From NCBI RefSeq assembly GCF_002938425.1, contig NZ_POQU01000031.1, positions 1 through 37,855 of the forward strand: a stretch of 37,855 nt of DNA, given 5' to 3'. The notes under the pieces were generated by a model. It saw only the letters and a list, made by a program, of their open reading frames with translations, ran no database searches and was not told where the DNA came from. This DNA is from Blastococcus atacamensis. GTDB taxonomy: Bacteria; Actinomycetota; Actinomycetes; Mycobacteriales; Geodermatophilaceae. Position 1 is the stretch's first letter; every line of letters starts with the position of its first letter. Made by a program: the position numbers and the translations under genes. Shown here in pieces: positions 4,217 to 14,739 of this stretch.

Positions 4217-4633
4217 GTGGACTCGGCCCTGCACGCCACCGACCCCTCCCCCGGTCGGTCCCGGGTCCTGGTGGCCGACGACGAGGACGACATCCGCGAC
4301 CTGGTCTGCGTGGCCGTGCGCAAGGCCGGCTGCGACGTGGTCCGCTCGGTCAACGACGGCGCCGAGGCGCTGGTCGCCGCGCGCACCGACCTGCCCGACC
4401 TGGCCGTCCTGGACGTCTCGATGCCCGGGGCCACCGGCCTGGAGATCTGCACGGCGCTGCGCGAGGACCCGGTCACCACCGGCATCCGCATCCTGCTGCT
4501 CTCGGCCGGCGCCTCCCCCGACGAGGTCGCCCGCGGCCTCTCGGCCGGTGCCGACGCCTATCTCGCCAAGCCCTTCACCGTCGCCGGCCTGGTCTCCCAG
4601 GTGCGGGCGCTGACCGTGGGGGTGCCGGCATGA
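4217..4633 (+). CDS. Stand-alone receiver-domain response regulator
   Basis: 138-aa single CheY-like receiver with no output domain. The acidic pocket is VADDEDD (Asp21/22), the phospho-acceptor is Asp66 in LAVLDVSMPG, and Lys118 is in YLAKPF. GTG start with GGGAG 7-8 nt upstream. Its TGA overlaps the ATG of the following histidine kinase (ATGA), so the two are made together and probably form a phosphotransfer pair. Without a DNA-binding domain it likely acts by protein contact or as a phosphate shuttle, possibly feeding the other receiver proteins in this window (inference). Confidence 0.9.
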   Translation: MDSALHATDPSPGRSRVLVADDEDDIRDLVCVAVRKAGCDVVRSVNDGAEALVAARTDLPDLAVLDVSMPGATGLEICTALREDPVTTGIRILLLSAGASPDEVARGLSAGADAYLAKPFTVAGLVSQVRALTVGVPA

Positions 4634-6420
4634 GCCTCGCCGTCCTGGACCGTCCCGCCGCCCCCGTGCCCGCGCGGACGCACCGGCTGACCGACCCCGC
4701 CACCTGGCAGGCCACGCTCCGCGGGCCGCTCCCCTGCACCGTCGTCTTCGCCGCGACGGCGGCGGTCCTGGCGGCCGGCTGGGTGCCGGTCGTCGACCGC
4801 CTGCTGACCGGCGCGGGGGTGGCCGTCGCGGTCGCCACCTCCGCCACCGCTTGGGCGGTCCGCCGGTCGCGGGCGAGCCTCCGGTCGCTGGCCGTCCCGG
4901 CGGCGCACCTGGTGGCCGTCGCCCTCCTGTACGCCGGTACCGCGTCAGCGACCATGCTCTTCCTGCTCCTCGGCCCGCTCCTGGTGCTGTCGTCGCACCC
5001 CACCCGCGCCGGGGTCCCGATCGCTGCGGGCGGCACGGCGGTCGTCCTGCTGGTCCCCGAGCTCATGGGCACCGCGTTCGCCGCGGCGCACCCGCCGGCC
5101 GGGGCGCTGCTGCTCGGTCCGCTGGCCGTCGCGGTGGGCAGCCTCGCCGTCCACGAGGACAAGCGCCGCGTCATCGCCCAGGCCGGCGACATCGCCCGGC
5201 TGCAGCGCGAGCAGTCCGCACTGCTGGAGCAGGTGCGCAGCCGCGCCGACGAGCTGGACACCGCCTCGCGGATCCTGGCCGCGCGCGCCCAGACCATGAC
5301 CAGCGTCATCGACGCGGTGACCCAGCAGTCGATCATCGGCACCGACCGGGACGGCACCATCCGCGTCTGGAACCCCGGCGCGGAGCGAATGCTCGGTCTG
5401 CTGCGGCCTGATGTCGTCCGGAAGCGGTCGATCCTCGAGTTCCACGAGCCGGACGAACTCGCTGCCGCTGCCGAGAGCATCGGATCGACCACGCCGCTCG
5501 AGGCGCTCGTGCACGCCGCCCGGGTGGAGGGCAGCGACGTCCGCGACTGGACCTACGTCGCCGCCGACGGCAGCCACCGCACCGTGTCGGTGGCCATCAC
5601 GCCGCGGTCGGACGACCGCGGCGTGCATGCAGGCTGGAACTTCGTCGGCACCGACATGACCGAGACGCGTGCCACGCAGCGGATGAAGGACCAGTTCGTG
5701 AGCCTCATCAGCCACGAGCTGCGCACCCCGCTGAGCTCGATCCTGGGCTACCTCGAGCTGGTCATGGACGACGAGGAGTCACCGCTCACCGAGGAGCAGC
5801 GCCAGTACCTCTCGACGGTCGAGCGCAACGCCCAGCGTCTGCTGCGGCTGGTCGGCGACCTGCTCTTCACCGCGCAGGTGGAGAGCGGACGATTCACCCT
5901 CCAGCCGGCCGACGTCGACCTCGCCGGGGTGGTCCGCGCCGCCGAGGAGACCGCCCGCGTCGCCGCGGCGAACGCCGGCGTGGAGATCGTGGTGGACGTG
6001 CCGGCCGACGGCCTCGTCGTCTCCGGGGACGCCGTCCGCCTCGGGCAGGCATGCGACAACCTGGTCTCCAACGCCGTCAAGTTCACCCCCGGTGGCGGCC
6101 AGGTGCGGCTCTCGCTGCAGCGGTCCTGGCAGACCGCCGACGGCGAGGTCGTGGCCGAGCAGCGCCCCGGCGCCGTCCCCGTGGCGCTGCTGTCGGTGGC
6201 CGACACGGGCATGGGCATCCCGGCCGGCGAGCAGGGACAGCTGTTCACCCGGTTCTTCCGCTCCTCCACCGCCCAGCGCAACGCCGTGCCCGGGGTCGGT
6301 CTGGGGCTGACCATCACCAAGGCCATCACCACCGCCCACGGCGGCTCCCTGGACCTGGTCAGCGCGGAGGGCCAGGGCACCACCTTCACCATGGCCCTGC
6401 CCCTCGGGCCGGCGGCCTGA
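4630..6420 (+). CDS. PAS-domain sensor histidine kinase
   Basis: 596-aa membrane sensor kinase. Several hydrophobic helices fill about 30-175 (e.g. LVAVALLYAGTASATMLFLL), followed by a coiled linker (LQREQSALLEQVRSRADELD). A PAS domain follows (SIIGTDRDGTIRVWNPGAER) at roughly 235-345. The dimerisation domain has the phospho-accepting His362 in ISHELRTPLSSILGYLE. The ATPase domain shows the N box DNLVSNAVKFTP, the D-box DTGMGIP and GVGLGLTI. The sensed signal is unknown; the membrane part has no recognisable sensory domain. Start ATG at 4630 overlaps the receiver gene's stop. Confidence 0.93.
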   Translation: MSLAVLDRPAAPVPARTHRLTDPATWQATLRGPLPCTVVFAATAAVLAAGWVPVVDRLLTGAGVAVAVATSATAWAVRRSRASLRSLAVPAAHLVAVALLYAGTASATMLFLLLGPLLVLSSHPTRAGVPIAAGGTAVVLLVPELMGTAFAAAHPPAGALLLGPLAVAVGSLAVHEDKRRVIAQAGDIARLQREQSALLEQVRSRADELDTASRILAARAQTMTSVIDAVTQQSIIGTDRDGTIRVWNPGAERMLGLLRPDVVRKRSILEFHEPDELAAAAESIGSTTPLEALVHAARVEGSDVRDWTYVAADGSHRTVSVAITPRSDDRGVHAGWNFVGTDMTETRATQRMKDQFVSLISHELRTPLSSILGYLELVMDDEESPLTEEQRQYLSTVERNAQRLLRLVGDLLFTAQVESGRFTLQPADVDLAGVVRAAEETARVAAANAGVEIVVDVPADGLVVSGDAVRLGQACDNLVSNAVKFTPGGGQVRLSLQRSWQTADGEVVAEQRPGAVPVALLSVADTGMGIPAGEQGQLFTRFFRSSTAQRNAVPGVGLGLTITKAITTAHGGSLDLVSAEGQGTTFTMALPLGPAA

Positions 6421-6450
6421 CCGTGACCCGCCCCGCGCCCCTCGCTCCCT

Positions 6451-6533: not shown

Positions 6534-6566
6534 GATTCCTTGCGGATTCCTTGCGGATCGCTGGCG
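6534..6566 (+). repeat. 11-bp tandem direct repeats upstream of the TasA operon
   Basis: GATTCCTTGCG occurs twice back to back (6534-6544, 6545-6555), followed by a degenerate third unit GATCGCTGGCG (6556-6566). An 11-bp period places units on one DNA face, the spacing used by OmpR/PhoB-family regulators. The array lies about 80 bp before the TasA-like start. An OmpR-family regulator is encoded at 8873-9580. Repeat seen directly; regulator link is inference. Confidence 0.55.
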
Positions 6567-6646
6567 GGTGGCCTGCGGTTGGCCCTCCAGAGTCTGTGTT
6601 GTCGCCGGAACACCGGTGGCACCACACGGACACAGGAGACATGGAC

Positions 6647-7246
6647 ATGAGCACCTCGACCGGCATTGCCACCAGCTCCACCGCCCGCAAGGTCGTCGCC
6701 TCGCTCGGCATCCTCGGTGCCACGGCTGCCATCGCCGGCCTCGGTACCTTCGGTGACTTCACCAGCAGCACCACCCCGACCGACCTCACCGTCGGCACCG
6801 GCACCGTCGCGATCAGCGCCGCCGCGCAGGGCACCGCCACCCTCGCCGCCACCGACTTCGTCCCCGGTGACTCGATGACCCGCGTGGTCAGCCTGAAGAA
6901 CGACGGGGCCGCCCTCGGCGCGCTGAACCTGAACACCATGTCCTCCACCAGCACCAAGCTCACCTCCGACGCGCTCAACGGCCTCCAGCTGCGACTGGAG
7001 TCCTGCAGCGCCCCGTGGACCGACGCCGTCGTCCCGGTCTGCAACGGCACCAAGACCACCGTCAGCAGCGGCCAGGCGGTCCGGACCATCGACCTCGCCT
7101 CGTCCCCCGCCATGGGTGCGGGCAAGACCGACTACCTGGCGGTCACCCTCAGCCTGCCCACCACGGCCGGCAACGACTTCCAGAACCTGTCGACCAAGCT
7201 GTCCCTGGTCTTCACCGGCACGCAGCGCAGCGGCACCGCCCGCTGA
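6647..7246 (+). CDS. TasA/CalY (camelysin)-family secreted protein
   Basis: 199-aa secreted protein of the SipW-dependent TasA/camelysin type. After a polar head, KVVASLGILGATAAIAGLGT forms the signal helix, followed by FGDFTSSTT, like the SipW processing region. The mature part is a Thr/Ser/Ala-rich beta-sandwich-like domain with the typical phrase VPGDSMTRVVSLKNDG and a late LSLVFTGTQ. Two cysteines (in ESCSAPW and PVCNGT) may pair. AGGAG at 6634-6638 is 8 nt before ATG 6647 but only 2 nt before ATG 6641, so 6647 is chosen. The dedicated signal peptidase follows directly. In Bacillus such proteins form biofilm fibres; the same role here is inferred. Confidence 0.82.
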   Translation: MSTSTGIATSSTARKVVASLGILGATAAIAGLGTFGDFTSSTTPTDLTVGTGTVAISAAAQGTATLAATDFVPGDSMTRVVSLKNDGAALGALNLNTMSSTSTKLTSDALNGLQLRLESCSAPWTDAVVPVCNGTKTTVSSGQAVRTIDLASSPAMGAGKTDYLAVTLSLPTTAGNDFQNLSTKLSLVFTGTQRSGTAR

Positions 7247-7912: not shown

Positions 7913-8331
7913 CCGCCATCCGGCGAACCGTGACCGTCGTCGGCCTGATGCTGGCCGTCGTGGTCGGCAGCAGCATCCCCTCATCGGCCCTCTACAGCGC
8001 CTCCACCACGATCACGGAGCCCGTCTCGACCGGCCGGGTCGCGGCACCCTCCTCCCTCACCATCGAGGACAGCTGCCGGGGCTGGTGGTACGAGGCGACC
8101 GTCAGCTGGCCGGCCAGCACCACGAGCCGGGGCGTCACCGGCTACCGCGTCATGGCGCACCTGAACACCGGCGAGTCGGTCGTCATGGCAGAGACGGACG
8201 CCGCCACCCGGAGCGTCTACCAGCAGGTCAACGCGAGCTACCTGAACTACCAGCCCCGCCTCTCGGTCATCACGCTCACCAGCTACGGCTGGACGGCGGA
8301 GACCCCGCGATCGGCGGTGCTGACGTGCTGA
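7909..8331 (+). CDS. Small secreted protein, possible fibronectin III-like fold
   Basis: 140-aa protein with a signal peptide (TVVGLMLAVVVGSSIPSSAL) and no other membrane segment. The mature part reads like one beta-sandwich of FnIII type: APSSLTIEDSC, YEATVSWPAS, GVTGYRVMAH, LSVITLTSYGW. It has two cysteines, one near the start of the domain and one as the last residue, which could pair. Overlaps the signal peptidase gene by 4 bp and the next gene by 7 bp. I do not recognise a specific family; a partner or anchor of the TasA-like protein is a reasonable guess from context. Confidence 0.7.
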   Translation: MTAIRRTVTVVGLMLAVVVGSSIPSSALYSASTTITEPVSTGRVAAPSSLTIEDSCRGWWYEATVSWPASTTSRGVTGYRVMAHLNTGESVVMAETDAATRSVYQQVNASYLNYQPRLSVITLTSYGWTAETPRSAVLTC

Positions 8332-8777
8332 GCCTCGTCCACTCTGTCGACGCCGTCGAGGACCCGGCCGACGAGCGCCTCGCGCCGCTCTCCGCCGTGC
8401 TCGTCCCCGGCACCCTCCTGGACTTCCTGCGCGGCCGGACCACGGGGCCGGCCGCGCGGGCAGAACTCCTCCCCGTCGCCGACGAGGACCTGCACGCCGG
8501 GGACCTGGGCGACGAGGACCTGGACGCCGACCTGATGGAACGGCTGCAGCAGATGTACCGCAGCGCACTCCCCGAGCGGCTCTCCGCGATCACGACGAGC
8601 ACCTCCGCCGGGAACGCCCCCGCCGTCGCCTCGGCCGCCAACACCCTGGCCGGGACCAGCGGCCAGCTGGGCCACCCCGAGGTCGCCTCGATCTGCCGGG
8701 CCATCGCCGCCGACGCCCGCCGCGGCGTGCTCGCCCACTCGCGGGTGCAGGAGCTGCAGGCCCTCGCCGGCGCCTGA
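8325..8777 (+). CDS. HPt-like protein lacking the phospho-histidine
   Basis: 150-aa soluble protein. The C-terminal half resembles a histidine phosphotransfer domain: AANTLAGTSGQLGHPEVASI matches the HPt core AAHxLKGSSxxLG. The phosphorylatable His is replaced by Asn106 (codon AAC) and the following Lys by Ala. The N-terminal part has VPGTLLDFLRGRT and an acidic stretch (DEDLHAGDLGDEDLDADL). GTG start at 8325, overlapping the previous gene by 7 bp, chosen because it keeps the operon coupled; a shorter version could start at an internal Met. It may bind receiver domains without transferring phosphate. HPt likeness is by eye. Confidence 0.6.
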   Translation: MLSLVHSVDAVEDPADERLAPLSAVLVPGTLLDFLRGRTTGPAARAELLPVADEDLHAGDLGDEDLDADLMERLQQMYRSALPERLSAITTSTSAGNAPAVASAANTLAGTSGQLGHPEVASICRAIAADARRGVLAHSRVQELQALAGA

Positions 8778-8872: not shown

Positions 8873-9580
8873 CTAGGCCACCAGTCGGTAGCCGACTCCG
8901 CGGACGGTCTTGATCTCGGGCGAGTTCAGACCGGCCGCGACCAGCTTGCGGCGCAGGTTGGACATGTGCGCCTCCACGAGCCGCAGGTTGCCCTCCCAGT
9001 CGGTCTGCCAGACCTCGCGCAGCAGCGTCTCCCGCTGCAGCACCCGGCCCGGGCGGGAGGCCAGCGCGGCCAGCAGGTCGAACTCGGTGCGGGTCAGGTC
9101 GACGATCTCGCCGTCGACCCGGACCTCCCGGCTGTCCTCGTCGACCTCGAGCTCGGCGAGCCGGCGGACCGAGTCGGCCGCCTCGACGGCTGCCGACGGA
9201 ACCGGGGGCGCGGTGCGCGGGAAGCGCAGCATCGCCTGCACGCGGGCGGCGAGCTCGCGCGGGGAGAACGGCTTGGCCATGTATCCATCGGCACCCACGG
9301 CCAGGCCGATCAGGAGGTCGACCTCCTCGGCGCGGGCGGTGAGCATCAAGACGTAGCACGCGGTCTCGGCCCGGATCTGGCGGCACACCTCGGTGCCGTC
9401 GGCGTCCGGGAGCCCGAGGTCCAGCACGATGAGATCCGGCGGGTTCCGCCGCACCTCCTCCAGTGCCGCACCGCCGGTGCCCACGGCGCGCACCGCGAAC
9501 CCGGCACGCTCGAGGACGGTCACCACGAGCTCGCGGATCTCCTCGGTGTCCTCGACCACGAGCACGGACTGTTCGGGCAC
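8873..9580 (-). CDS. OmpR-family response regulator
   Basis: 235-aa two-domain regulator. The receiver has Glu10/Asp11, phospho-acceptor Asp54 in LIVLDLGLPD, Thr81 and Lys103 in MAKPF. The winged-helix output domain shows VDLTRTEFDLLAALASRPG, LLREVW, VEAHMSNLRRKL and the closing TVRGVGYRLV. GTG start with GAGGAGGAG upstream; the nearby ATG at 9585 is out of frame. No kinase gene adjoins it. It faces away from the receiver-PIG-L operon and is convergent with the TasA operon. The 11-bp repeats at 6534 have the spacing expected for this family, but binding is inferred. Confidence 0.93.
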   Translation of the reverse strand: MPEQSVLVVEDTEEIRELVVTVLERAGFAVRAVGTGGAALEEVRRNPPDLIVLDLGLPDADGTEVCRQIRAETACYVLMLTARAEEVDLLIGLAVGADGYMAKPFSPRELAARVQAMLRFPRTAPPVPSAAVEAADSVRRLAELEVDEDSREVRVDGEIVDLTRTEFDLLAALASRPGRVLQRETLLREVWQTDWEGNLRLVEAHMSNLRRKLVAAGLNSPEIKTVRGVGYRLVA

Positions 9581-9834: not shown

Positions 9835-10926
9835 GTGGACGGTGCACTGCACGTCCTCGTCGTCGACGACGACCCCGACACCGCGTTCTTCGTGCGCACC
9901 GTGCTCCAGCGCGGCGGCATGACCGTGACCACCTGCGGGGACCCGCTCGAGGCACTGGCCCTCGTGGGCCGCGTCGAGTTCGACGCCGCCATCACCGACA
10001 TCGAGATGCCGGGCATGACCGGGCTGGAGTTCCTCGACCGACTGCGCCAGGTCCGCCCGGACCTTCCCGTCACGGTGATGACCGCGCACGCGTCGGTGGA
10101 CTACGCCGTGGAGGCCCTGCGCCGGCAGGCCGACGAGTTCCTGGTGAAGCCCGTCCCCAAGGACACCCTCGCCGCGACGATCCGCCGGCTGGCCGGGACC
10201 GCCGCGGCCAAGCGCGCCGCCGCTCCGCAGCGGCAGACGGTGCTCGCCATCGGCGCGCACCCCGACGACGTCGAGATCGGGGTCGGCGGCACGCTGGCCG
10301 CCCACCGCTCAGCCGGCGACCAGGTCGTCATCCTGACCCTCTCCCGCGGTGCCCGCGGAGGTGAGGTCGACTCCCGCCAGGACGAGTCGCTGGCCGCCGC
10401 CGAGCTGATCGGCGCCCGCCTCTTCCTCGAGGACCTCGAGGACACCCGCATCAGCCCGATGGACCCGACCATGTCCATCATCGAGCGCGTCGTCAACGAG
10501 GTGCGTCCCACGCTCGTCTACACGCACTCGGCCAACGACCGGCACCAGGACCACCGCGCCGTGCACCAGGCGGCGAGCGTGGCGACCCGGTCGGTGCCCA
10601 CCGTCGCGTGCTTCCAGAGCCCCTCGGCCACCATCGACTTCCGGCCCACCCGCTTCGTGAACATCGACGGGTTCACGCGCACCAAGCTCGACCTGCTGGC
10701 CGCCTTCCGCTCGCAGGCCGGCATCCGCGCCTACCTCGAGGACGACTTCGTCCTGGCCACAGCCCACTACTGGTCGCGCTACACCAGCGGCGGCCGCTAC
10801 TGCGAGCCGCTGGAGGTCATCCGTGACGGCGGCGGGGTCGTCGGCGCCACGAGCGACTCCGCCTTCCGGCCCGCCTCTTCCTCCACGGCCACCTCCTCGA
10901 TCACCCCGGAGCGCTTCGGTGTCTGA
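9835..10926 (+). CDS. Receiver domain fused to PIG-L (LmbE-like) deacetylase
   Basis: 363-aa fusion. Residues 1-120 are a CheY-like receiver: VVDDDPD with Asp12/13, phospho-acceptor Asp55 in AAITDIEMPGM, Thr83 and Lys105 in FLVKPVPK. After an Ala/Arg linker, residues 135-330 are a PIG-L zinc N-deacetylase: GAHPDDVEIGVGG supplies His142 and Asp145, and HSANDRHQDHRAVH supplies His237/His240. The family removes acetyl from N-acetylglucosamine-type sugars (MshB, LmbE, PIG-L). The last 30 residues are Ser/Thr-rich and disordered. GTG 9835 follows AGGGAG by 8 nt. The stop overlaps the ATP-grasp start. A phosphorylation-controlled deacetylase is the natural reading. Confidence 0.87.
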   Translation: MDGALHVLVVDDDPDTAFFVRTVLQRGGMTVTTCGDPLEALALVGRVEFDAAITDIEMPGMTGLEFLDRLRQVRPDLPVTVMTAHASVDYAVEALRRQADEFLVKPVPKDTLAATIRRLAGTAAAKRAAAPQRQTVLAIGAHPDDVEIGVGGTLAAHRSAGDQVVILTLSRGARGGEVDSRQDESLAAAELIGARLFLEDLEDTRISPMDPTMSIIERVVNEVRPTLVYTHSANDRHQDHRAVHQAASVATRSVPTVACFQSPSATIDFRPTRFVNIDGFTRTKLDLLAAFRSQAGIRAYLEDDFVLATAHYWSRYTSGGRYCEPLEVIRDGGGVVGATSDSAFRPASSSTATSSITPERFGV

Positions 10927-11905
10927 CTCTCCCACCCGCGTCCTCGTGTCCGGCGCCGGCGGCCCCGCCGGCATCGCCGTGCTCCGCTCGCTGGCCCACC
11001 GCGACGACGTCGTGCTGCTCGCCGCCGACATGGACCGCTACGCCAGCGGCCTCTACCTGGTCGAGGCCGGTGCCCGGCACCTGGTCCGCCCCGGCCTGAG
11101 CGAGGAGTTCGTCGACCACCTCGTCGAGCTGTGCGAGCGGGAGCGCGTCGACGTCCTCTTCTCCACGGTCGACGTCGAGCTGCCCCGGCTGGCCGCCGAG
11201 CGCAAGCGCCTGGACGCCGTCGGCACGACGCTGGCCGCGCCGAGCCTGGAGACGCTCGAGGTCTGCCTGGACAAGTACGCGCTGGCCCAGCGCTGCGCCG
11301 GCGTCGTCCGCACCCCGCGCACCGCGCTGCTGGGCGACACCGACCCCGGGAGCTGGGACTACCCGGTCATCGTGAAGCCCCGCCGCGGCGCCGGTTCGCG
11401 TGGCGTCCACCTCGTGGAGGACGCCGCCGCGCTGCGCGCCCTGGGCAGCGACGAGGACATCCTCGTGCAAGCCCACCTGCCCGGCGACGAGTACTCGGTC
11501 GACACCCTCGCCGACGCCGACGGCACCGTGGTCGCCGCCGTGCCCCGGTCGCGGCTGCGGGTCGACTCCGGGGTCTCGGTGGCCGGCTCGACCGTCGCCG
11601 ACCCGGAGCTCGAGGACACGGCCCGCCAGGTGGCCGCGGCCATCGGCCTGGTCGGCGTCGCCAACATCCAGCTGCGCCGCGACTCCGACGGCCGCCCCGC
11701 GCTGCTCGAGGTGAACCCGCGCTTCCCCGGCGCGATGCCGCTGACCGTGGCCGCCGGCGTCGACATGCCCTCCCTCGCGCTGGACCTGGCGCTGGAGCGG
11801 CCGCTGCCGGCCTCGGTGCCCTTCCGGGAGCTCGCCGTCGTCCGGTACCTGGAGGACGTCTTCCTCCCGCTGGCCGAGGTCGTCGCCGACGAGACCGCCC
11901 GATGA
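10919..11905 (+). CDS. ATP-grasp ligase (CarB/PylC-like)
   Basis: 328-aa ATP-grasp enzyme. The N-terminal Rossmann-like part begins RVLVSGAGGPAGIAVLRSL. The ATP-binding core has YPVIVKPRRGAGSRGVHLV (glycine-rich loop), ILVQAHLPGDEYSVDTL, and the metal-binding end LLEVNPRFPG. Such enzymes make an acyl-phosphate and join a carboxylate to an amine or thiol. GTG start 10919 has CGGAG 7 nt upstream and overlaps the deacetylase stop by 8 bp; the stop overlaps the PHP gene (ATGA). An amine freed by the upstream deacetylase would be a fitting acceptor. Substrates unknown. Confidence 0.88.
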   Translation: MSDSPTRVLVSGAGGPAGIAVLRSLAHRDDVVLLAADMDRYASGLYLVEAGARHLVRPGLSEEFVDHLVELCERERVDVLFSTVDVELPRLAAERKRLDAVGTTLAAPSLETLEVCLDKYALAQRCAGVVRTPRTALLGDTDPGSWDYPVIVKPRRGAGSRGVHLVEDAAALRALGSDEDILVQAHLPGDEYSVDTLADADGTVVAAVPRSRLRVDSGVSVAGSTVADPELEDTARQVAAAIGLVGVANIQLRRDSDGRPALLEVNPRFPGAMPLTVAAGVDMPSLALDLALERPLPASVPFRELAVVRYLEDVFLPLAEVVADETAR

Positions 11906-12651
11906 CCGCCGCGCTGGGTGAGCTGGATCTGCTGCTCACCGACCACCACGTGCACTCCACCTGGTCCGACGACGCGATGAGCGCCCCTCTGCAGAACCTG
12001 GTGGCCGCCCGCGACACCGGTCTGGCCAGCATCCGCATGGTCGACCACGTCCGGACGACGACGACGTGGGTGCCCGGGTTCCTCGCCGAGGTGTCCGCGC
12101 TGCCCCGCATCGAGGGCCTCGAGGTGCTCACCGGCGTGGAGGCGATGATCCTCGACGCCTCCGGCCGGCTCGACGTCCCCGACGACCTCGTCGTCGGCGC
12201 CGGCGGTGTGGACCGGGTGCTCATCGCCGACCACCAGTTCCCCGGGCCGGACGGCCCGTGGAGCCCCCGCCGCACCATCGAGGAACTGGCCGCCGGGCTG
12301 CCGGCCGAGGACGCGATGAGCATCCTGGTCACCGCCACGGTGGGTGCGATGGAGCGGGCGGGCCGCGGCCAGCTCGCCCACCTGTTCTCCCTGCTGCCCC
12401 AGATCGGGCTGCACGAGAGCGAGCTGCTCGACGAGCACGTCGCCGCGATCGCCGACGCCGCCGTGCGCACCGGGACCACGGTGGAGGTCAACGAGAAGTG
12501 GCGCTGCCCGGGCCCCCGCGTGGTGCTCCAGCTCGCCGCCGCCCGGGTTCCCCTCGTCGGCTCGACCGACAGTCACGAGGCCGCGACCGTCGGCCGCTAC
12601 TCCTGGGTGGCCGACGCGGCCTCCGCGACCCGACTGGTGGGAACCCGATGA
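11902..12651 (+). CDS. PHP-domain metal-dependent hydrolase
   Basis: 249-aa PHP (polymerase and histidinol phosphatase) domain protein. The first metal motif is TDHHVHSTWSDD (His16, His18, Asp23/24). Further ligands are likely in MVDHVR, GVEAM, IADHQF and the C-terminal STDSHEA. Length and motifs fit histidinol-phosphatase-like phosphoesterases rather than the polymerase-associated domain. Coupled by ATGA to the ATP-grasp gene, so probably the third step of the same pathway, such as removing a phosphate or opening a cyclic ester. The exact reaction cannot be read from sequence. Confidence 0.87.
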   Translation: MTAALGELDLLLTDHHVHSTWSDDAMSAPLQNLVAARDTGLASIRMVDHVRTTTTWVPGFLAEVSALPRIEGLEVLTGVEAMILDASGRLDVPDDLVVGAGGVDRVLIADHQFPGPDGPWSPRRTIEELAAGLPAEDAMSILVTATVGAMERAGRGQLAHLFSLLPQIGLHESELLDEHVAAIADAAVRTGTTVEVNEKWRCPGPRVVLQLAAARVPLVGSTDSHEAATVGRYSWVADAASATRLVGTR

Positions 12652-12894
12652 GATACCTCTTCCCCGCCGAGCCGGCGTGGGCCACACCGCGCTGACCGTC
12701 TTCCTGCTCGTGCTCGTGGCGGTGGGCGCGATCCCGGGGCTCGCCGGCCTGGGCCAGTTCCCGGTCATCCCGCTGCACGCGGTGCGCAACCACCGAGGCC
12801 GACCGGTGCGCGGCCGCGGCTCTACGTCGGGATGGCCGCGGCGATCGCCGTCGTCGTCGCGCTGTACTTCGCCCGCGCACTGCTCCTGGGCTGA
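12648..12894 (+). pseudogene. Frameshifted small two-helix membrane protein
   Basis: An ATG at 12648 overlaps the PHP stop (ATGA), but its frame closes at 12695 after 15 codons (MRYLFPAEPAWATPR). From about 12677 a second frame gives GHTALTVFLLVLVAVGAIPG and a following QFPVIPLHAVRNHRGRP. From about 12815 a third frame gives RLYVGMAAAIAVVVALYFAR and stops at 12894. Together they resemble one small two-helix membrane protein broken by two frame changes, or read wrongly. A GTG at 12677 would give an alternative start. It is the fourth member of the receiver-PIG-L operon. No family recognised. Confidence 0.5.
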
Positions 12895-13021: not shown

Positions 13022-13252
13022 ATGTACGTGTGCCACTGCAATGTGGTGACCGACCGCGACATCCTCGAGGCCATCGCCAACGGCGCCCGGTGCATCGCCG
13101 ACGTCGCCCGGGCCACGGGCGCCGGCCGCACCTGCGGCAACTGCGTCGACTCCATGCGCGAGCTCGTGTGCAAGCATTGCCCGGTCCGCGCCGAGCGCAC
13201 GACCGAGCGCCCGGCGGAGCGAGAACTGGGAGTCGCTGGTGCAGCCCGTTAG
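13022..13252 (+). CDS. bfd: Bacterioferritin-associated ferredoxin
   Basis: 76-aa [2Fe-2S] protein. The four cluster cysteines have the Bfd layout: Cys4 and Cys6 in MYVCHCNVVTD, Cys38 and Cys41 in RTCGNC. Bfd delivers electrons to bacterioferritin haem so that stored ferric iron is reduced and released. The fold ends at about residue 55; the remaining Arg/Glu-rich tail is extra. Starts 66 bp after an iron box and overlaps the bacterioferritin gene by 14 bp, so expression is coupled. The overlap forces the tail to share DNA with the next gene's start. Confidence 0.9.
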   Translation: MYVCHCNVVTDRDILEAIANGARCIADVARATGAGRTCGNCVDSMRELVCKHCPVRAERTTERPAERELGVAGAAR

Positions 13253-13724
13253 CCCCCGTGTGGTCGAACTGCTCAACGACGCGTTGACCTTCGAGCTCAC
13301 CGTCACCAACACCTACTTCCTCAACGCGCGCATGCTCGACGCGTGGGGCCTGCCGAAGCTCGGCAAGGTCTTCTACGACCTCTCCATCGACGAGATGCGC
13401 GACGCCGACGCCCTCATCCAGCGCGTCCTGCTCTTCGACGGCCACCCGAACCTGCAGCGCCTGGGTGCCATCCGGATCGGCGAGACAGCCGAGGAGATGC
13501 TGGTCCTGGCCCTCGACAGCGAGAAGGCCGCCGTCGCGCAGTTCAACGCCTCGGCCAAGGAGTGCCACGACCTCGGCGACCACGGCACCGCCTCGGTGTT
13601 CGAGGAGATGGTGCTCGACGAGGAGAAGCACGCCGACTGGTTCGAGGCCCAGCTCGCCGCGATCGAGCGGGTCGGTGCTCCCCAGTACCTCGCCGCGCAG
13701 ATCGTCACCGAGACGCCTGCCTGA
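13239..13724 (+). CDS. bfr: Bacterioferritin with an altered ferroxidase residue
   Basis: 161-aa four-helix iron-storage protein. Aligned to E. coli Bfr (offset +1), the haem ligand is Met53 in SIDEM, and ferroxidase residues Glu19, Tyr26, Glu52, Glu95, Glu128 and His131 are kept. The residue matching ferroxidase His54 is Asp55 (SIDEMRDAD instead of SIDEMKHAD). GTG start at 13239 has TGGGAG about 7 nt upstream, inside bfd. The C-terminus (YLAAQIVTE) matches the family. The substitution could slow or alter ferroxidation at one iron site, or the subunit may work in mixed shells with another Bfr. Confidence 0.92.
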   Translation: MQPVSPRVVELLNDALTFELTVTNTYFLNARMLDAWGLPKLGKVFYDLSIDEMRDADALIQRVLLFDGHPNLQRLGAIRIGETAEEMLVLALDSEKAAVAQFNASAKECHDLGDHGTASVFEEMVLDEEKHADWFEAQLAAIERVGAPQYLAAQIVTETPA

Positions 13725-13788: not shown

Positions 13789-14739
13789 CTACAGCGCCAG
13801 GTCGCGCAGCTGCTCCAGCTGCAGGGTCGCCGCGCGCAGACCGATCCCGGTGTAGAAGACGTCGTCCTCGACCGCGAAGGCGCGCCCCTCGGTGACCGCA
13901 CCCAGCCGCGGCCACAGCGGGCCGGCCACGACCGCCTGCTCCCCGGAGTCCGTGGCCGGTCCGTAGGAGGAGTGCAGGACGATGTCCGCGTCGGCCTGGG
14001 TCAGCTCCTCGGGCGACAGCTCCGCGAAGGTCGTGGTCTCACCGGTGGGCAGCTGGAGCTGGTCCAGCCCGATGTCGGTGAGCACGGTGCCGATGAACGA
14101 CTGCGCCGTGTAGACGCGGATCGTGCCCTCGACGAAGCGCATGGCGCTGACCGTCGTCCCGGCCGGGTCGCCCAGCTCCTCCCCCAGCGCGGCGGCGTCG
14201 GCCTCGTAGTCCTCCAGCGCGGCCCGCGCCTCGTCCTCCAGGCCGAGCGCCTCGGCGTCGAGCAGCAGGTTCTCCTTCCACACCGCCCCGACCTTCTCGG
14301 CGAAGACCGTCGGCGCGATCTGCGCGAGCTGCTCGTAGATGTCCTCGTGCCGCACCTTGTTGGAGAGGATGAGGTCCGGCTCCAGCGCCGCGATGGCCTC
14401 GAGGTCGGGCTCGGCGATGGTGCCCACCACCTCGACGCCCTCGGCGTCGTCGGCGAGGTAGCTGAGGAAGCCGTCGGAGACGGCGGTGGTGACGGCGCCG
14501 ATCGGGGTGATGCCCAGCGACAGCGCCGAGTCCAGCTCCCCGGTGTCGAGCACGACGACGCGCTGGGGCCGCTCCGGGATCTCGGTGCTGCCCATCGCGT
14601 GTTCCACGGTGCGCGGGAAACCCTCCGCCGCGGACGAGCCGCCCGCGGCCTCCTCGGGTTCCGAGTTCCCGCCACAGGCGGTGAGCGCCAGGGCAGCGGT
14701 GAGGGTCGCCGCCACCGCACGCAGGACGCGCGTCGTCAT
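13789..14739 (-). CDS. Iron-siderophore ABC transporter substrate-binding lipoprotein
   Basis: 316-aa secreted lipoprotein of the FepB/FecB/FhuD fold. Lipobox LTAC with Cys22 follows a signal helix. Landmarks are PERPQRVVVLDTGELDSALS, IGAV, EPDLEAIAALEPDLILSN, APTV and a late SSYGPATDSGEQA. It would capture Fe-siderophores for an ABC importer, but no permease or ATPase genes are next to it. Start ATG 14739 has AAGGAG 6 nt upstream. Divergent from the siderophore-interacting protein gene, sharing an iron box at 14822-14840, so both should be repressed when iron is plentiful. Confidence 0.9.
   Translation of the reverse strand: MTTRVLRAVAATLTAALALTACGGNSEPEEAAGGSSAAEGFPRTVEHAMGSTEIPERPQRVVVLDTGELDSALSLGITPIGAVTTAVSDGFLSYLADDAEGVEVVGTIAEPDLEAIAALEPDLILSNKVRHEDIYEQLAQIAPTVFAEKVGAVWKENLLLDAEALGLEDEARAALEDYEADAAALGEELGDPAGTTVSAMRFVEGTIRVYTAQSFIGTVLTDIGLDQLQLPTGETTTFAELSPEELTQADADIVLHSSYGPATDSGEQAVVAGPLWPRLGAVTEGRAFAVEDDVFYTGIGLRAATLQLEQLRDLAL

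Follow-up and report, generated by a model that had tools for sequence, protein, structure and literature searches.

Bacterial response regulators act mostly on transcription, and those with enzymatic output include the CheB and GGDEF/EAL types. Among systems that expose amines on N-acetylglucosamine (GlcNAc), the closest described counterparts of the locus presented here are the synthesis of poly-N-acetylglucosamine (PNAG) by PgaABCD or IcaADBC, in which PgaB and IcaB are secreted enzymes of another fold, and the NodC/NodB/NodA core of Nod-factor synthesis, in which NodB and NodA have other folds as well. Here we describe a locus of Blastococcus atacamensis (assembly GCF_002938425.1, contig NZ_POQU01000031.1, positions 1 to 37,855 of the forward strand; this whole stretch of 37,855 nucleotides is referred to below as the window), in which a two-component receiver is fused to a PIG-L deacetylase (REC-PIG-L) and is followed by genes for an ATP-grasp protein and a PHP-fold protein. 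REC-PIG-L, ATP-grasp, PHP and a PgaC/IcaA-like membrane glycosyltransferase of family 2 (GT2) form one conserved run in many Actinomycetota, and the active-site residues of receiver and deacetylase are kept in most members. We propose that the run may encode a pathway, gated by a phosphorelay, for building and altering an envelope glycan that contains amino sugar, a reading which, judged from gene content and sequence, we consider evenly poised between right and wrong.

The fusion itself is clear. One protein of 363 residues matches both Response_reg (8.8e-29) and PIG-L (PF02585, 1.6e-24) in Pfam, and when the window protein is aligned with 39 partners from loci with a clear receiver (hand-picked for diversity, as were the sequences of all four of our alignments) D12, D55, K105, H142, D144, D145 and H240 are invariant, while D13, T83 and H237 are kept in at least 90% of the 40 sequences. 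The window protein has the acidic pair, phospho-acceptor aspartate, threonine or serine, and lysine of two-component receivers; together with its family match to PIG-L/LmbE proteins it has AHPDD and a distal HxxH, whose roles as metal and catalytic residues we in part presume. The roles of these residues otherwise follow PMC4101496, and the main text of that article contains neither 'receiver' nor 'response regulator'. An earlier note on this DNA, made from the letters alone, had proposed both a receiver complete in its phosphorylation residues and a deacetylase with intact zinc ligands, and the Pfam matches and the alignment support it on both counts (for the ligands, by the invariance of H142, D144, D145 and H240 and the near-invariance of H237). 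In the AlphaFold2 model (mean predicted local distance difference test, pLDDT, 90.8; predicted template modelling score, pTM, 0.73) the domains are well modelled and their mutual arrangement is less sure. Foldseek places the modelled C-terminal half closest to LmbE/BshB proteins and diacetylchitobiose deacetylases, with the hydratase 5cgz, of the same fold, also among the matches, and places the receiver half with structures of NtrX, PleD and PorX. When the comparison is widened to 93 loci, nine (L105, L108, L120-L123 and L127-L129) turn out to have a degenerate receiver. Three of these (L122, L127, L129) are PIG-L proteins within the same tree whose N-terminal stretch has no receiver-family match.

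The ATP-grasp fold is that of carboxylate-amine ligases. The product of the second gene matches ATPgrasp_Ter (PF15632; 2.3e-32, 112 bits against a cut-off of 29.1) and, at scores under their cut-offs, the PRK12767 models; its nearest solved sequence is 2pn1. None of the window proteins scanned matched Ter, and no search was aimed at Ter genes. Sequence models reach the third product only faintly, with Pfam PHP at E = 0.003 and NCBIfam PRK09248 at 1.9e-10, each under its own cut-off. Its AlphaFold2 model (pLDDT 94.0, pTM 0.91), however, matches YcdX (1m65, 5.7e-10), histidinol phosphatases and PolX, and in its alignment H18, H49, E80 and H111 are invariant and H16, H160, D223 and H225 are kept in at least 90%, residues that we take to be metal ligands. 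Because the model matches these enzymes and the metal-site residues are conserved, we regard the assignment as settled: on its predicted structure, the second enzyme after REC-PIG-L, the one that follows the ATP-grasp gene, is a PHP phosphoesterase fold with its metal ligands, as the earlier note had it.

Within the genus, a full-length REC-PIG-L orthologue is found in 17 of 23 genomes, the window's included (the copy in G010 has an internal stop, and G008 holds a fragment), and a full-length ATP-grasp orthologue at 83% identity or more in 16 (the copy in G013 has an in-frame stop, that of G008 is in two pieces, and G010 has none at that level). The closest named loci are from Blastococcus, at 82-92% over the PIG-L part (the window genome being G000 and its contig C89). 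The order of a divergent OmpR gene, REC-PIG-L, ATP-grasp and PHP is identical in all 15 genus loci with a full-length ATP-grasp gene (L010-L024). Between the window and seven relatives, the ratio of nonsynonymous to synonymous substitution rates (dN/dS) is 0.12-0.19 for REC-PIG-L, 0.10-0.23 for ATP-grasp and 0.08-0.21 for PHP; among four relatives, compared in six pairs, it is 0.04-0.19. Since the order is kept in 15 of 15 loci and dN/dS stays at 0.08-0.23, the arrangement is not a product of chance, and the three window genes still look constrained. Weaker ATP-grasp matches elsewhere in the family, at 39-45% identity in long frames, were rejected as orthologues because in the two genomes inspected they belong to a paralogous set with a UDP-GlcNAc 2-epimerase and so to another operon.

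Beyond the genus, our tallies come from the 80 nearest named loci, which are the best 80 of at least 561 relatives (at least 597 stretches); they describe the nearest relatives, with Microbacterium and Cellulomonas over-represented. The 80 loci, a number of which are metagenome assemblies, include Actinomycetes, Thermoleophilia and Acidimicrobiia; shorter versions of the run come from Alpha- and Gammaproteobacteria, Bacteroidota, Gemmatimonadota, Myxococcota and Rhodothermota. Of the 80, 76 have a detectable receiver, the signal being weak in alphaproteobacteria. ATP-grasp lies directly 3' of REC-PIG-L in 62 of the 78 loci with enough flank, PHP comes next in 52 of 76, a same-strand GT2 is found further downstream in 52 of 75, and ATP-grasp, PHP and GT2 are all present in 47 of 75. 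The earlier note had staked its reading on the three genes staying together in relatives, and so they do, across the genus and across Actinomycetota. Of 394 genomes sampled across the class, 12 have a match over both domains (the window's own and one genus relative among them) and two further genomes match in PIG-L only. A tree of REC-PIG-L, made by a quick method with 75 rows (19 of 94 dropped, mostly near-duplicates and one frame-split) and with 20 of its 71 inner branches open, largely follows the lineages, and complete runs appear in several deep actinobacterial branches. Gene clusters were drawn from 63 of the 80 loci, 17 near-duplicates being left out; clusters 6 and 9 appear to be antisense frames and were set aside.

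The partners do not move independently of one another. PHP stands next in line in 52 of the 60 loci with ATP-grasp and in none of the 16 without, one of which has a nearby PHP gene on the other strand. PHP therefore tracks ATP-grasp and does not directly follow REC-PIG-L alone, so that its task probably belongs with the ligation. In three loci from alphaproteobacteria a His_Phos_1 gene comes directly after ATP-grasp, in the place of PHP (L105 8251-9219, L108 4031-4852 and L123 8450-9229), which reads as if any phosphatase might serve; in Kangiella, Marinicella and Chryseobacterium GT2 comes directly after ATP-grasp, and a phosphatase at the locus is thus not obligatory.

These patterns bear on the pathway that the earlier note had in mind, one of the mycothiol or bacillithiol type, in which PHP would dephosphorylate, PIG-L deacetylate and ATP-grasp ligate to yield a free metabolite. 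The PIG-L domain is indeed nearest in sequence to LmbE/BshB proteins, the other two proteins have a phosphoesterase fold and the fold of carboxylate-amine ligases, and the window itself holds the three enzymes without a GT2. Yet GT2 belongs to the run in most relatives, the BshB1 model scores 90.6 bits on the fusion against a cut-off of 182.5, and the MshB model has two matches elsewhere in the genome and none at this locus (E 1e-5), a separate MshB being encoded at 411.6 bits (cut-off 224.35). With PHP following ATP-grasp rather than PIG-L, we part from the mycothiol-like logic and consider a small-molecule product improbable, the least likely of the readings weighed here.

The gene that the earlier note overlooked is the fourth. 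In relatives, PHP is followed by a GT2 gene of about 490 residues, full length in 15 of the 23 genus genomes when the protein of L055 (Blastococcus sp. LR1) is the query. Its best NCBIfam match is PgaC/IcaA (TIGR03937), at 133.4 and 122.5 bits for two relatives against a cut-off of 422.3, followed lower down by NodC (TIGR04242) at 59.0 and 66.6 bits against 550, and so neither cut-off is reached. In 21 chosen GT2 sequences from four phyla, D93-D94, DAD 151-153, AED 243-245 and QRxRW are invariant, and these correspond to the D, DxD, ED and QxxRW motifs that presumably mark processive membrane GT2 enzymes. Mean column identity is 62% in this alignment of 21 sequences and 53-55% in the three others, the sequence sets being different.

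In the window only residues 7-47 of the GT2 query are left, at 12674-12796 (73% identity, E 1.6e-11); the remnant amounts to about 48 codons, its homologous part is off the start frame, and it stops before all of the synthase motifs. By blastn, window 12401-12793 corresponds to L055 4621-5008, and the sequence from 12792 onward to L055 6466 onward. Relative to L055, a single clean deletion of about 1.46 kb at 12792/12793 has taken nearly the whole GT2 gene. A contig break as the cause was rejected, as the sequence continues past the junction into DNA that relatives conserve; an assembly error may lie behind it. With the native GT2 lost, the three-gene copy in the window strain has either been left without a synthase in recent time or makes use of another GT2.

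The loss brings forward the alternative that the operon is decaying in this strain and has no present function, which we think possible but doubtful, albeit the strongest competitor to the envelope-glycan proposal. GT2 is deleted here, and elsewhere in the genus a stop interrupts the REC-PIG-L gene of G010, where for neither ATP-grasp nor GT2 was a close orthologue matched. The three frames are nevertheless intact, as are their start and stop overlaps, and their dN/dS is comparable to that between relatives with a complete run; a recent loss would be too young to leave a mark on this ratio. In G008 (L025) the run is broken as well and is decaying as a whole: most of the PIG-L part is gone and GT2 is in three pieces with stops. 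That REC-PIG-L, ATP-grasp and GT2 are all broken together in this genome also speaks for their belonging to one pathway.

We turn now to the source of the phosphoryl group. In many Micrococcales, in Nakamurella and in Pseudonocardia, GT2 is followed by zero to two small receivers and then by a PAS-HisKA-HATPase kinase (domains checked in L065). Alignments of the window kinase with those of complete runs cover 445-612 residues at 37-50% identity, and most of them extend into the stretch ahead of the PAS domain; from its sequence, the window kinase is a homologue, and probably an orthologue, of the kinases 3' of complete Micrococcales runs. A kinase of at least 300 bits, a threshold that may admit other kinases, is found in 55 of the 73 loci whose downstream flank is long enough and, within 6.5 kb, in 41 of 45 complete-set loci with enough flank. 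No locus of eight with a degenerate receiver has such a kinase near, versus 55 of 65 with an intact one, a grouping drawn up after the alignment had been seen and amounting to about three lineages on the tree; it is suggestive of receiver intactness going with a nearby kinase. The earlier note had guessed at a link between this kinase and the fusion. That guess gains support because a homologue sits in the complete runs of many Micrococcales, while the idea of a kinase private to the operon was rejected, a homologue being present in all 23 genus genomes; the adjacency in Micrococcales stands. The genes that separate the kinase from REC-PIG-L in the window include those for an Hpt protein and an OmpR regulator.

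In Kangiella and Marinicella (L113, L115, L117) the run is instead accompanied by a divergent pair of genes for a hybrid kinase and a haem-NO-binding (H-NOX) protein. In L115, from Kangiella, the two occupy 4230-6446 on the minus strand, beside REC-PIG-L, ATP-grasp and GT2; their domains were checked in that locus, and L113 and L117 were assigned by cluster.

A reading in which the locus is chiefly a signalling device, with REC-PIG-L as the kinase output that would release or destroy a signal or a wall-derived GlcNAc compound while its neighbours vary with the host, draws on the same facts. Receivers, Hpt proteins and kinases surround REC-PIG-L, and in L043, L044, L046, L068, L090, L101, L104 and L112 the kinase comes after REC-PIG-L with no ATP-grasp, PHP or same-strand GT2 adjoining it (flank being limited to about 1.5 kb in L043, L044 and L046). 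Such a device is unlikely, in our estimation, since the enzymes keep a fixed order in most of the 80 loci.

Several observations weigh against the envelope-glycan pathway that we prefer. The kinase homologue occurs throughout the genus, and in G005, G007, G015, G016 and G021 it occurs without a REC-PIG-L orthologue; the kinase tally may include other kinases, as noted; ten loci with intact receivers have no such kinase near, L113, L115 and L117 carrying the hybrid kinase; and alphaproteobacterial receivers depart from the phosphorylation residues. Among the 80 loci, no complete set was seen outside Actinomycetota. REC-PIG-L also occurs with a kinase and with no adjoining ATP-grasp, PHP or same-strand GT2 (for example in L068, L090, L104 and L112), which means that the rest of the pathway need not be present at the locus, and L059, L060, L065 and L083 have ATP-grasp and PHP with no GT2 before the kinase. 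The GT2 score is so far under the PgaC cut-off that the sugar cannot be read from the match. Finally, GT2 is gone from the window, yet the three other genes keep their low dN/dS, which means that the loss is recent or that the three genes work without GT2.

Features of the window, with their positions and the basis of each assignment (Table 1), agree with the earlier note in the coordinates of the three genes and in their overlapping arrangement; what it called a three-gene operon stands as to genes and order, and falls short by the GT2 gene that continues the run in relatives.

Table 1. Genes and domains at the REC-PIG-L locus
Feature	Position	Strand	Details
REC-PIG-L fusion	9835..10926	+	363 aa, GTG start; Pfam, alignment, AlphaFold2, Foldseek
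Receiver within REC-PIG-L	~9853-10182	+	
PIG-L core within REC-PIG-L	~10243-10584	+	
ATP-grasp ligase-like protein, ATPgrasp_Ter / PRK12767 type	10919..11905	+	328 aa; overlaps REC-PIG-L gene by 8 bases
PHP-fold phosphoesterase-like protein	11902..12651	+	249 aa; 4-base ATGA overlap with ATP-grasp gene
GT2 (PgaC/IcaA-like) remnant	12648..12793	+	start codon in ATGA overlap with PHP stop
OmpR/CreB-like response regulator, divergent	8873..9580	-	family match; same place in 15/15 genus loci L010-L024
Hpt phosphotransfer domain protein	8085..8777	+	counterpart in relative L056 is receiver plus Hpt
PAS-HisKA-HATPase histidine kinase	4630..6420	+	homology to kinases 3' of complete Micrococcales runs
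Small stand-alone receiver	4217..4633	+	overlaps kinase gene

The signalling stretch between the kinase and the Hpt gene contains a weak camelysin (Peptidase_M73) match at 6551-7246. Downstream of the run lie genes for a BFD-like [2Fe-2S] protein and then a bacterioferritin (13022-13724), and a periplasmic-binding-protein-like gene on the minus strand (13789-14739). In seven loci from Microbacteriaceae (L064, L066, L067, L069, L090, L104 and L112) a conserved gene, CN_hydrolase in L104, stands directly 5' of REC-PIG-L, and some of these loci have an aminotransferase-cluster gene further on, on the other strand.

Two other Geodermatophilaceae genomes (L141, L142) have a paralogous set of PIG-L, GT2, ATP-grasp and UDP-GlcNAc 2-epimerase with no receiver. 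In the window genome a second PIG-L adjoins a GT2 on contig C80, contig C94 holds an epimerase and a weak ATP-grasp match, and a receiver-less set of this kind is possibly split over the two contigs. These epimerase-linked sets point to glycan chemistry derived from UDP-GlcNAc.

The general outline of the proposed envelope-glycan pathway can be sketched. The kinase, perhaps by way of the small receivers and the Hpt protein, would phosphorylate D55 of REC-PIG-L, and this would raise or lower the activity of the PIG-L domain on an N-acetylglucosamine unit, be it a nucleotide sugar, a lipid-linked unit or the end of a growing chain. The ATP-grasp enzyme would then cap the freed amine with a carboxylate, PHP (or the histidine phosphatase of some alphaproteobacteria) would take a phosphate off the ligation partner or the product, and GT2 would polymerise or export the glycan. 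In the window strain, lacking its GT2, there might be no product, a truncated one, or a product made with another GT2 in trans, for example that on C80, beside the second PIG-L. From the genes we infer the gating and the substrate, as well as which acid is ligated and whether polymerisation precedes or follows deacetylation. A bolder version, which we think rather unlikely though a little less so than a pure signalling device, would make the run a functional equivalent of the Nod-factor core, non-homologous to it and answering directly to a two-component system, with a PgaC/NodC-like synthase building a GlcNAc oligo- or polysaccharide, a receiver-gated PIG-L in the part of NodB, and an ATP-grasp enzyme in the part of NodA attaching an amino acid or other carboxylate; nitric oxide, sensed by H-NOX, would be one input in Kangiella and Marinicella.

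What makes the locus worth attention is the union of a receiver with a sugar-modifying enzyme, a fusion that many Actinomycetota keep beside a ligase, a phosphatase and a synthase-like GT2. If the pathway is as proposed, phosphorylation lets bacteria set directly how an envelope glycan is charged or decorated; if the Nod-like version holds, the make-up of a glycan with a surface or signalling role is switched post-translationally. In either case the run gives context to an ATP-grasp and a GT2 subfamily without nameable products. No description of the receiver/PIG-L fusion or of the gene run was found in open-licence full text, outside which most subscription journals lie, and no by-name search was made for a census of response-regulator outputs; the earlier note, which knew of no described pathway with this fusion, agrees with the literature searched.

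The locus can be set beside the systems named at the outset. Like PNAG synthesis, it combines in relatives a membrane GT2 nearest to PgaC/IcaA with a probable GlcNAc de-N-acetylase, but here the deacetylase is a PIG-L protein fused to a receiver, ATP-grasp and PHP are extra, and GT2 reaches 122-133 bits where 422 would be needed. With NodC/NodB/NodA it shares the logic of a GlcNAc synthase, an amine-exposing deacetylase and N-acylation, NodC being the lower of the GT2 matches; unlike that system, the ATP-grasp enzyme here would attach a carboxylate using ATP. MshB and BshB have the family and fold of the PIG-L domain, whereas REC-PIG-L differs from them in its receiver, in missing the BshB1 cut-off, in its gene partners and in having MshB encoded separately. 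Similarly, the ATP-grasp gene resembles the ATPgrasp_Ter and PRK12767 carbamoyl-phosphate-synthase-like proteins in matching the models of both, but differs in its sub-threshold PRK12767 scores. The gene run is probably a new variant of an envelope-glycan pathway. All of its parts are known families, and as in other response regulators with enzymatic output, PorX among them in the Foldseek matches, a receiver with its phosphorylation residues is joined to an enzyme; the receiver/PIG-L fusion is a variant of that class in which the output is a PIG-L deacetylase.

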